Assembly (NCBI RefSeq): GCF_014697195.1
Contig: NZ_JACJRJ010000028.1
Span: forward strand, 1 to 64,000
Length of the DNA: 64,000 nt
Direction of reading: 5' to 3'
Source: Cylindrospermum sp. FACHB-282
GTDB lineage: Bacteria > Cyanobacteriota > Cyanobacteriia > Cyanobacteriales > Nostocaceae
In this document: positions 10,670 to 56,401 of the stretch, in pieces
Layout of the letters: each line of letters starts with the position of its first letter
Position numbering within the stretch: the stretch's first letter is position 1
The notes under the pieces: model-generated
What the model was told of the DNA's origin: nothing
The model's database searches: none
Seen by the model: only the letters and a program-made list of their open reading frames with translations
Position numbers and translations under genes: made by a program

Positions 10670-10705
10670 GAGTTTTTTTCACGCAGAGGCGCAAAGGCGC
10701 AGAGA
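10625..10705. repeat. Direct repeat, left copy (lapA-like 3' end plus GCGCAAAGGCGC motif)
   Basis: This stretch covers the last codons of the LapA-like gene (GATGCAGAGTTTTTTGTTG and onwards) and the CGCAGAGGCGCAAAGGCGC repeat. A near-identical copy lies at 11322-11405, so the ParE/ParD-like cassette is bracketed by direct repeats of about 80 bp. Confidence 0.85.
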
Positions 10706-10707
10706 AG

Positions 10708-10986
10708 TTAATCGGGATAGCGTTTTGAGGTGTGGAGAACTCGCAGAATTTCTACTGTTTCTTCTTTGACTCGGTAAATGAGTATATACGGTGAGTTAGA
10801 AATTATCAGTTCCCTTGTCCCCTCTACACGTCCAGATTTCCCCATAAAGGGATAATTTTCTAGTTGATTGGCAGCATTTTGAATCTTCAATATTAGTTCC
10901 GGTGCTGCTGTGGGATTGTCTTTGAGAATGTAACTATGTGCCTGTTCTAAGTTACGCAGCGCCCGACGTAGCCATCTAATCTGCAT
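10708..10986 (-). CDS. RelE/ParE superfamily toxin
   Basis: About 92 residues beginning MQIRWLRRALRNLEQ, with the superfamily pattern: an N-terminal strand, two helices (AHSYILKDNPTAAPELILKI), then GKSGRVEGTRELIISNSPYILIYRV and the terminal VEILRVLHTSKRYPD. ParE members poison DNA gyrase and RelE members cut ribosome-bound mRNA. The R-E-L and HT(S/R)K(R)YP features fit the ParE side better. The ATG at 10986 overlaps the antitoxin stop by 11 bp; a TTG five codons upstream is possible. Toxin follows antitoxin, the usual ParDE order. Confidence 0.87.
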   Translation of the reverse strand: MQIRWLRRALRNLEQAHSYILKDNPTAAPELILKIQNAANQLENYPFMGKSGRVEGTRELIISNSPYILIYRVKEETVEILRVLHTSKRYPD

Positions 10987-11218
10987 GGGTAAGTCTGGCA
11001 AATGTGGCTTTTACTTCTTCATCACTAGCAAAGTCTCCAGCATCAGCTTCAGCAATACCTTTTTGAATCTCTTCGATTTGCCATTGATACATTTCTAAAT
11101 AAGCGGCTACTGCTTCATTTAAAACGTAACTGCGATCGCGGTTCATCCCTGTGGCAATTGTATCAAGTGCGGTTTTTTTCTCGCTGTCTATCCGAAAGGT
11201 AATATTTTCTTTGCTCAT
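10976..11218 (-). CDS. ParD/CopG-type ribbon-helix-helix antitoxin
   Basis: 80 residues. The N-terminus (ENITFRIDSEKKTALDTIATGMNRD) is a ribbon-helix-helix DNA-binding domain, and the C-terminal part, rich in Glu and Asp (EEIQKGIAEADAGDF), is the kind of tail that wraps the toxin. It should neutralise the ParE-like product and repress the shared promoter upstream of 11218. The two coding frames overlap, so translation is coupled. Confidence 0.87.
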   Translation of the reverse strand: MSKENITFRIDSEKKTALDTIATGMNRDRSYVLNEAVAAYLEMYQWQIEEIQKGIAEADAGDFASDEEVKATFARLTHAD

Positions 11219-11321: not shown

Positions 11322-11405
11322 TCGCGTTTAGATGAAGATGCAGAGTTTTTTGTTGATGATGAAGATTTTTAGGGTTTTGGTTTCGCGCAAAGGCGCAAAG
11401 GCGCA
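11322..11405. repeat. Direct repeat, right copy (duplicated lapA-like 3' end)
   Basis: TTTAGATGAAGATGCAGAG and the following bases repeat the 3' end of the LapA-like gene with a few changes (GAGG to GAAG). They are followed again by GCGCAAAGGCGCAAAGGCGC. No coding frame continues upstream, so it is a scar and not a second gene. Confidence 0.85.
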
Positions 11406-11453: not shown

Positions 11454-12260
11454 TTGGCTTACGATAATATTTGCCGCTACCTCACCGATAATTACCCGTT
11501 ATCTTTTGTGCAATGGTTAATTGCAGAAGATATCAATAAAATTGAGGTACTACCGACTGAGTTACCTATTCAACCGATTCGTTGTGATGCATTGTTTCTG
11601 CTACCGACATTAAATCGCATTCTGTATCTAGAAATTCAAACTTCGCCAAAATCTGATCCACCCATGCCAATACGGATGTTAGATTATTGGTTGAGGATTT
11701 ACCGTAAATATTCGTGTCCTGTACAACAGGTAGTGATTTTTCTCCAGGAGACAAATTCACCTGATGTTTTTGTTGATAGTTTAATAGTAGAGAATACACG
11801 GCATCAATACCAAGTGATCAGGGTATGGGAACAAGAAAGCGAACCTCTTTTACAAGTTCCCGCTTTATTACCATTAGCAGTTTTAGCCAAGACAGATGAA
11901 CCAAATAAATTACTACAGCAAGTTGCTTTAGCTATAGATAAAATTGAAGAACAGCCGCAGCAAAAGAATATTGCAGCTTGTGTAGAAGTATTGGCTAGTT
12001 TGAAGTTTGATAAACAATTAATTCAACAATATCTCCGGGAGGAACTTATGCAAGAAGCACCCATGTATCAAGAAATTATTAAGCGCGGTAAATTAGAGCT
12101 TGTTATCCGCCAGTTGAAACGTCGTGTTGGGGAGATTTCGCCAAAGTTAGCGTCACAAATTAAAGAGTTATCAGGTGAAAAATTAGATGATCTTTCCGAA
12201 GCACTTTTAGATTTTTCTCAACCTTCTGATTTAGTAACTTGGATGGATAATCAAGGGTAA
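11454..12260 (+). CDS. Rpn/DUF4351 family PD-(D/E)XK nuclease
   Basis: 268 residues of the recombination-promoting nuclease (Rpn, transposase_31-like) family common in cyanobacteria. The N-terminal nuclease domain (about 1-130) opens with MAYDNICRYL; the catalytic positions appear as Asp in IRCDALFL and the E-x-Q of LEIQTS. The C-terminal domain (about 199-268) is the DUF4351 type: RGKLELVIRQLKRRVG, then IKELSGEKLDDLSEALLDF. The start is a TTG at 11454; no in-frame ATG gives a full domain. An internal ATG at 12048 has a near-perfect ribosome binding site, described separately. E. coli Rpn proteins are DNases with anti-phage activity, so a defence role is plausible but inferred here. Confidence 0.85.
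   Translation: MAYDNICRYLTDNYPLSFVQWLIAEDINKIEVLPTELPIQPIRCDALFLLPTLNRILYLEIQTSPKSDPPMPIRMLDYWLRIYRKYSCPVQQVVIFLQETNSPDVFVDSLIVENTRHQYQVIRVWEQESEPLLQVPALLPLAVLAKTDEPNKLLQQVALAIDKIEEQPQQKNIAACVEVLASLKFDKQLIQQYLREELMQEAPMYQEIIKRGKLELVIRQLKRRVGEISPKLASQIKELSGEKLDDLSEALLDFSQPSDLVTWMDNQG
12048..12260 (+). CDS. Possible internally started small protein (Rpn C-terminal domain alone)
   Basis: Within the Rpn gene, GGGAGG at 12037-12042 is followed five bases later by an in-frame ATG, giving a 70-residue product starting MQEAPMYQEI that is the C-terminal DUF4351 domain alone. In E. coli, Rpn genes are reported to make such a short intragenic form that acts as antitoxin to the full-length nuclease. The signal here is strong, but expression is inferred. 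The independent copy at 12296 begins at the equivalent codon. Confidence 0.4.
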   Translation: MQEAPMYQEIIKRGKLELVIRQLKRRVGEISPKLASQIKELSGEKLDDLSEALLDFSQPSDLVTWMDNQG

Positions 12261-12295
12261 AATCTTGGCAGAGTTGAAATCTCAGAGAGGAATTA

Positions 12296-12520
12296 ATGGA
12301 AGAAGCCCCAAAGTATCAAGAGATTTTTCAAAAAGGCATGAACATTGGTAAATTGGAAATTATTTTCCGTAAAATCAATCGGCGCTTTGGGGTAATTTTA
12401 CCAGAATTAGAGTCACAAATCAAAGAATTATCAAATCAACAGTTAGATGCACTTGTGGATGTATTTTTAGATTTTTCACAACTGTCTGATTTGGTAGATT
12501 GGATGGCTAATCAAGGGTAA
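12296..12520 (+). CDS. Stand-alone DUF4351 domain, tandem copy of the Rpn C-terminus
   Basis: 74 residues starting MEEAPKYQEI. They align over the full length with residues 199-268 of the Rpn protein just upstream (RKINRRFGVILPELESQIKELS against RQLKRRVGEISPKLASQIKELS, and the same LDFSQ..DLV.WM.NQG ending). It has its own GAGAGG five bases before the ATG and starts exactly where the internal start of the upstream gene lies. It lacks any nuclease domain. It may be a truncated duplicate or a functional free antitoxin; the conserved frame, ribosome site and stop argue against simple decay. Confidence 0.65.
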   Translation: MEEAPKYQEIFQKGMNIGKLEIIFRKINRRFGVILPELESQIKELSNQQLDALVDVFLDFSQLSDLVDWMANQG

Positions 12521-13546: not shown

Positions 13547-13762
13547 ATGCAGTATCAAAATATTATTACCATTGAACCAGGAAAACGAGGTGGGAAACCT
13601 TGTATTCGTGGGATGCGAATTACCGTATATGATGTTTTATCATATCTTGCTTCCGGCATGACTTATGAGGAAATATTTAGTGATTTTCCTTATTTGACAC
13701 AAGAAGATATCCTAGCTTGTCTCAGCTATGCCGTTGATAGAGAACGGGAAACTGTTAAATAA
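13547..13762 (+). CDS. DUF433 protein (putative VapB-type antitoxin)
   Basis: 71 residues: ITIEPGKRGGKPCIRGMRITVYDVL, then YLASGMTYEEIFSDFPYLTQEDILACLSYA, the complete DUF433 winged-helix pattern. These usually precede a DUF5615 PIN-like toxin gene. Here the next gene is a DUF29 protein, so the expected toxin is absent and this looks like an orphan antitoxin or DNA-binding regulator. Start at ATG 13547. Confidence 0.85.
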   Translation: MQYQNIITIEPGKRGGKPCIRGMRITVYDVLSYLASGMTYEEIFSDFPYLTQEDILACLSYAVDRERETVK

Positions 13763-13781
13763 ACTCACTCACCAGCAAGTT

Positions 13782-14213
13782 ATGAGCGCAACATATCAAA
13801 CAGATTTCAACTTTTGGATAGAACAAACAGCCCAACTATTGCGGGAAAATCGCTGGCAAGAAATTGATAAAGAACATTTAATTGAGGAGATTTCCGACTT
13901 GGGTAAAAGTGAAAAGCGAGCAATTTATAGTCAACTAATTCGCTTGCTTTTACATTTGCTCAAATGGCAATATCAACCCCAGCGGCGCTCAGATAGTTGG
14001 CTAGATTCTATCACTGATGCTCGTACCCAAATTGAATTAACTATTAAAGATAGTCCCAGTCTTAAAAAGTATCCGACAGAACAACTTGAAGAAAGCTATG
14101 AAAGAGCACGTCGGCAAGCTACGAAACAAACAGGATTACTAATTTCTGTATTTCCAGAAAATTGCCCATATTCTTTAGATTTAGTATTAAATGAAGACTG
14201 GCTACCTGAATAA
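13782..14213 (+). CDS. DUF29 family protein
   Basis: About 143 residues from MSATYQTDFNFWIEQTAQLL, with the DUF29 hallmarks IDKEHLIEEISDLGKSEKRA, LLLHLLKWQYQPQRRS.SW and a closing FPENCPYSLDLVLNEDWLP. Function is unknown. The family is greatly expanded in cyanobacteria. I start it at the ATG at 13782, 19 bp after the DUF433 stop; the open frame reaches back to 13728 but that part overlaps DUF433. A paralogue lies at 55589-56044. Confidence 0.85.
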   Translation: MSATYQTDFNFWIEQTAQLLRENRWQEIDKEHLIEEISDLGKSEKRAIYSQLIRLLLHLLKWQYQPQRRSDSWLDSITDARTQIELTIKDSPSLKKYPTEQLEESYERARRQATKQTGLLISVFPENCPYSLDLVLNEDWLPE

Positions 14214-56160: not shown

Positions 56161-56401
56161 AGCGAAGCGCTGCTGCTTTCAGCAGATCGCATTTTTCGGG
56201 TGTGTGGCTATATCTTTTTTGTCTCACGCAGAGGCGCAAAGCCGCAGAGAGAGTAAGAAGAGGGCAATGCACGTTGGAAATGATTGCATTTTGGAGGTTT
56301 GGGATTTTTAAGAGCGATCGCCAACTCTGATCTTATATACTTGTTATATGTACAGGTAATAAAATGTGCTGTTTCATGTTAGTTAAGTTACATTCAACAG
56401 G

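Follow-up and report, generated by a model that had tools for sequence, protein, structure and literature searches.

A conserved, off-register copy of a probable internal antitoxin beside a probable Rpn-type nuclease gene in Cylindrospermum sp. FACHB-282

Rpn nucleases (RpnL) are restrained by a C-terminal product, RpnS, whose translation starts inside the nuclease gene, and some loci carry a separate rpnS gene downstream (Zhong et al. 2023, PMC10327210). To the knowledge of those authors this was the first antitoxin to be found inside the gene of its toxin. The combination of an intragenic start with a separate copy has already been described in Escherichia coli for rpnE/ypaA (rpnES) and rpnC/rpnCS, and the same paper reports that YpaA is synthesised in E. 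coli, mentions fusions of rpnE with the separate copy, infers a repeated origin of the separate copies of rpnC and rpnE and contains the name DUF4351. The C-terminal domain varies in its number of four-residue units (its register), and the text and the legend of Fig. 4D state that RpnCS with an added repeat fails to counteract RpnCL and that blocking requires an equal repeat number, a rule measured in E. coli RpnC only, with one added repeat and an SOS reporter. The main text and legends of that paper contain no statement that separate copies are off-register, and a search by title and abstract opening, with most subscription journals outside its scope, found no other papers on Rpn registers among the matches listed. 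The layout is known from E. coli; the off-register property of the separate copies was not found stated in the literature.

The locus described here lies in a window of 64,000 nucleotides, the whole stretch of DNA analysed, from Cylindrospermum sp. FACHB-282 (Table 1). Like E. coli rpnE/ypaA and rpnC/rpnCS, it has a predicted internal start for its C-terminal domain, a separate copy next to it (here called the solo) and a varying number of four-residue units; in rpnE/ypaA the separate copy has the ribosome site of the internal start. Unlike the E. coli systems, its nuclease belongs to another sequence group and carries a C-terminal domain of another sequence (DUF4351), and identity between the solo and the internal product is no more than 58%. 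DUF4351 (PF14261) is matched in a Pfam search by the whole nuclease, by its C-terminal part and by the solo, the small domain that bears the internal ribosome site and start codon matching at E 7.2e-22; the value of E 8.6e-07 belongs to the match of the nuclease to TIGR01784, which at 29 bits is under the cut-off of 52.1. The name Rpn is given to the nuclease because of this sub-cut-off match, the layout and a D...ExQ motif formed by D45, E60 and Q62, which we take to be candidate active-site residues and which are kept in the nuclease of strain NIES-4074. The AF2 model of the nuclease (pLDDT 45.7) is too poor for judging a PD-(D/E)XK N-terminal domain. The initial annotation had pointed to GGGAGG with an in-frame ATG giving a 70-residue C-terminal product, and to an independent gene 35 bp past the nuclease stop whose first codon corresponds to the internal ATG and which has a GAGAGG of its own, and both are confirmed in the sequence. 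It had also called the solo a tandem copy of exactly the internal product, and here "exactly" does not stand: aligned from the first Met, 43 of 74 residues are identical and the solo has one four-residue insertion.

Table 1. Features of the nuclease gene and the adjacent solo, in window coordinates
Feature	Position	Strand	Basis
RpnL-like nuclease toxin, C-terminal DUF4351	11454..12260	+	TTG start without Shine-Dalgarno; 268 aa; domain and sequence searches
Internal Shine-Dalgarno, GGGAGG	12037..12042	+	sequence; duplex -10.3 kcal/mol
Putative intragenic RpnS-like product from ATG 12048, 70 aa, shorter register (without the extra four-residue unit)	12048..12260	+	sequence, alignment
In-frame TGA upstream of the L-R-E-E-L relic	12275-12277	+	sequence
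L-R-E-E-L codon relic (CTC AGA GAG GAA TTA)	12281..12295	+	sequence; upstream identity profile, 28 pairs
Ribosome site of the solo, GAGAGG, within the relic	12285-12290	+	sequence
Solo RpnS-like gene, 74 aa, DUF4351 alone	12296..12520	+	ORF list, domain search, dN/dS, AF2 model
Extra four-residue unit MNIG in the solo, without counterpart in the adjacent nuclease domain	12338..12349	+	alignment (one version: 12335-12346)

The surroundings of the pair include, before the nuclease at window 10708-11218 on the minus strand, a ParE-family toxin gene (PF05016) overlapped on its upstream side by a short ORF of 80 aa without a Pfam match, and, downstream of the pair at 13547-14213 (+), ORFs with DUF433 and DUF29, which as listed overlap by 35 nt, the start of the second being putative. 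By eye, DNA similar to the ParE region sits after the pair in NIES-4074, as if modules had been shuffled. At the C95 pair of the window genome (G000; L004/L005) a CGCAAAGG tandem repeat is joined to the solo's ribosome site, just upstream of the solo, and similar repeats were found by blastn at window 10673-10705, 11375-11404 and 56215-56252; repeats of this kind may mediate duplications. PADLOC gave no hits on five proteins, viral relatives were looked for and none were found, and a promoter and terminator scan gave no signal above shuffle level.

The internal start was assessed by the energy of the Shine-Dalgarno duplex with the 16S tail. In the window this is -10.3 kcal/mol at the internal ATG, which lies five bases 3' of GGGAGG, -6.5 at the solo ATG and +0.4 at the nuclease's own TTG, values that would be compatible with a scarce toxin and an abundant antitoxin. 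Of the 161 unique toxins in the window's family 148 could be used, and over these genes, which are kin and not 148 independent cases, the energy at the internal start averages -8.28 kcal/mol against -3.45 in synonymous recodings, whilst the other in-frame Met codons average -1.20 (n=291). A value of -6 kcal/mol is reached by 95% of the internal starts and by 1% of the other Mets; the background is 9.0% of 5761 ATGs taken in any frame from 120 loci, true starts counted in. When the set was enlarged by further cyanobacterial families, an anchor Met was recognised in 227 of 259 toxins, with 218 reaching -6 and nine lying between -4 and -6 kcal/mol; in the other 32 no Met was recognised, in several cases due to narrow search patterns. 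The intragenic antitoxin start of the initial annotation is backed by these comparisons. On sequence grounds an internal start is strongly supported, in that its ribosome site is found again in each of five cyanobacterial groups, which we delimited from the residues flanking the internal Met, and exceeds synonymous recodings, and the internal product is a likely antitoxin.

The solo has kept a trace of its descent. The 15 nt 5' of its ATG encode L-R-E-E-L, the residues that precede the nuclease's internal Met, and for this reason the solo's ribosome site is former nuclease coding sequence, in line with the earlier suggestion that the antitoxin region had been copied out as a gene of its own. 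Across the 28 toxin-solo pairs in which toxin and solo each have the anchor Met, DNA identity upstream of the solo and the internal start is 84% at -9 to -1, about 50% at -21 to -10 and 31% at -75 to -61, a profile which suggests that homology of the copies typically resumes at the ribosome site; in some pairs it extends further, and in some solos (L001, L097, L127, L229) homology at the ribosome site is absent. The duplex energy of the solo reaches -6 kcal/mol in 21 and -4 in 28 of 33 pairs. Where search-fetched loci extended 400 nt or more downstream, an adjacent solo was present for 10 of the 153 unique toxins.

Comparison of the solo with its NIES-4074 ortholog over 69 codons gave dN 0.079 and dS 0.443 (dN/dS ~0.18), which shows, as judged from one ortholog comparison, that the predicted gene is under purifying selection; for the nuclease between the same genomes dN and dS are 0.057 and 0.329 at the N-terminus and 0.096 and 0.651 at the C-terminus. 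The sequence evidence supports the solo as a conserved copy of the rpnS part, carried out as its own gene. In a tree of 27 C-terminal domains the two orthologous solos form one clade (support 99/96), whereas C18 of the window genome has a solo that groups with its own toxin (100/98); because the label "solo" needs at least four changes on well-supported branches, solos arose repeatedly. The AF2 model of the solo (mean pLDDT 77.8) has a long first helix at residues 7-31; it matched no PDB fold at E 0.001 or better, and PDB sequence searches at E up to 1 returned 6 and 3 hits, none with an Rpn name. Short DUF4351 ORFs also occur alone. Some of 113 such solitary ORFs have kept the RpnS part and its start next to a toxin N-terminus that is shortened or frame-shifted; 14 are without an N-terminal match and some matches exceed 200 residues in shifted frames, counts in which short matches may be to the RpnS helix only and which, the regions having been picked for short ORFs, give no frequency. 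Head-to-tail DUF4351 arrays were seen at L350 (G271) and L351 (G258), with ten and at least seven matches spaced by ~0.9-1 kb in genomes of 2.5-2.6 Mb.

The two copies differ in register. The extra unit is located within solo residues 14-18, so that the coupling helix of the solo is one unit longer than that of the adjacent nuclease; the nuclease reads IIKRGKLE, without the unit, and the solo IFQKGMNIGKLE, with it. The NIES-4074 locus (AP018269.1; L001, L066) is like that of the window in the identity and order of its two genes and in the sequence upstream, which is similar, but the extra unit is in its nuclease (IIQRGVKSGKLE) and its solo reads IMKRGKLE; that solo, unlike the window solo, has no LREEL relic and no GAGG before its ATG. 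The solo-toxin difference is +4 in the window and -4 in NIES-4074, and the unit number of the solo is not that of its toxin. Since it is one unit off, the window solo would most likely have little or no neutralising effect on the adjacent nuclease, but since the rule comes from E. coli RpnC the mismatch may be tolerated by cyanobacterial partners.

A search of 350 cyanobacterial loci (overlaps included) yielded 39 toxin-solo pairs. The register could be measured in 33, seven of which match, and 32 of the 33 length differences are multiples of four, zero counted in; the six unmeasurable pairs are L161, L296, L046, L034, L035 and L347, of which L161 and L035 by eye differ too. Two mismatched pairs, L250 (a 180-aa remnant) and L297 (difference no multiple of four), were removed for further comparison, and an earlier set with shorter toxins had contained three further loci that fall outside the rule adopted afterwards: L159, a match, L111, a mismatch, and L244, with unrelated domains. 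In the resulting 31 pairs there are seven matches, where within-group shuffling of the solos predicts 5.5 (P of at least 7 = 0.26), the solo is the shorter in 16 and the longer in eight, and the register lengths of toxin and solo are correlated (Spearman 0.59). All seven matches are at short registers, with 7-16 residues from anchor to core. The three pairs of the window genome (C35, C18, C95) are all mismatched, and three loci with a toxin followed by two solos (L097; L325/L345; L339/L346) have three distinct registers each. Tandem full-length toxins shared a register in only 4 of 38 cases, and toxins of different loci had the same register in 24-38% by bin at core identity of at least 0.9 and in 14-18% at 0.5-0.9. 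At core identity of at least 0.9, 0 of 15 toxin-solo pairs match (4 of 33 for tandem toxins); below 0.9 the figures are 7 of 18, a larger share than for different-locus toxins, and 0 of 5, so that a part of the older solos may act for the toxin beside them. With toxin register and identity both controlled for, eight usable pairs were left, with one match against 1.5 expected. Selection for mismatch was considered, and these data do not show it: beside toxins of different loci 0 of 15 would stand out as too few matches, but not beside tandem toxins, and over all 31 pairs the matches equal random pairing. These data show that the register changes fast in general and that solos are unbound to the register of their neighbour.

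A comparable picture was obtained in E. coli. In K-12, YpaA carries KLEG, which is absent from RpnE (inactive per annotation), and the ribosome site is where the copied block starts. In 4,750 of 5,426 genomes a stretch covers 80% or more of the K-12 region, a count that takes in single-copy fusions. K-12 and 24 strains drawn from two evenly spaced 60-row lists (5,371 matching genomes) were compared, the strains being chosen with an eye to differing lengths and so not a random sample; the 22 with both rpnE and ypaA showed ten register combinations and no match, where random pairing of these combinations predicts 0.59 matches (P(0)=0.52). Three strains picked as single-copy (L267, L374, L375) have rpnE fused to the solo's tail. 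All four rpnC loci in which a second copy was read are mismatched as well, by +8, -10, -20 and -14 residues (counted by eye), two of these not being multiples of four, and the rpnC copies are without an internal Met.

The initial annotation suggested that the toxin may have two antitoxins, and it is here that our reading departs from it. A solo acting as a second, dosage-raising antitoxin of the adjacent nuclease, its four extra residues being tolerated in binding, would account for its adjacency on the same strand, for its conservation since the split from NIES-4074 (dN/dS ~0.18), for a register common to 7 of 31 pairs, and to 7 of 18 below 0.9 core identity, and for the production of YpaA in E. 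coli (Zhong et al., PMC10327210). It sits badly with a one-unit mismatch that is reversed in NIES-4074, with matches no more frequent than under random pairing, with the absence of any match in the 22 sampled E. coli strains, with an identity of only 58% to the internal product and with the equal repeat number required in Fig. 4D of the same paper. On this balance we regard it as unlikely, an RpnS that is off-register and uncoupled being the likelier reading. Because tandem full-length toxins differ in register too, the mismatch requires no special function. The solo could be a functionless remnant of a partial tandem duplication in which the register shifts through neutral slippage at a 12-bp repeat. 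The register is equally free in tandem full-length toxins (34 of 38 differ) and a toxin N-terminal match lies just upstream of 99 of the 113 solitary ORFs, but the sole orthologous solo pair has a dN/dS of ~0.18 and the Shine-Dalgarno site and start are kept while the flanks diverge, which makes a remnant improbable.

The solo might instead serve mainly as a donor cassette whose recombination with the 3' end of the nuclease gene gives the toxin and its internal antitoxin a new register at once, as the single-copy E. coli rpnE loci with the solo's tail and the fusions mentioned in PMC10327210 would suggest. The G002 nuclease (L070) also fits: its DNA agrees with that of the window at ~98% of positions as far as 12053 (587/600) and at ~81% thereafter (146/180), with no solo in the 3.2 kb covered, so that its C-terminal part seems to have been replaced as a block. 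That 3' part is, however, closer to the window nuclease (51/70) than to the solos (42/70, 46/70), and a donor has no need of its own ribosome site; we hold this to be very improbable as the main role.

The reading we prefer, to which we would give a probability of about 0.5, is an Rpn-type gene-within-gene locus whose solo is a conserved, register-independent copy, most likely a poor neutraliser of its neighbour and a probable antitoxin against other variants. A weakly started RpnL and a strongly started internal RpnS would be made from one gene, and because one gene encodes both, their four-residue registers always agree. The rpnS part would have been tandemly duplicated with its coding-derived ribosome site retained, giving the separate gene, which was conserved while its register evolved independently and is now one unit off. 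We infer from these features that the internal product and the solo are translated and that the solo fails to neutralise its neighbour; its role could be that of a reserve against other register variants, a recombination cassette or a weak extra antitoxin. Its persistence would probably reflect use as an antitoxin against Rpn variants of other registers, whether allelic or incoming, and by recombination into the nuclease gene it could alter the toxin along with the internal antitoxin. Chromosomal anti-addiction antitoxins, such as the ccd homologues, may act on a toxin that is not their neighbour, and the solo resembles these in being a homologue that possibly acts on a toxin other than the adjacent one.

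It is a tentative and rather doubtful extension that the solo rpnS genes of cyanobacteria and E. coli form a standing off-register reserve, translatable, protecting against variants and able to be spliced in to switch register. If it is true that outside copies are usually off-register, they would not simply be spare antitoxins for their neighbour, and the hypervariable unit number would be tied to allele-against-allele immunity or to register switching.
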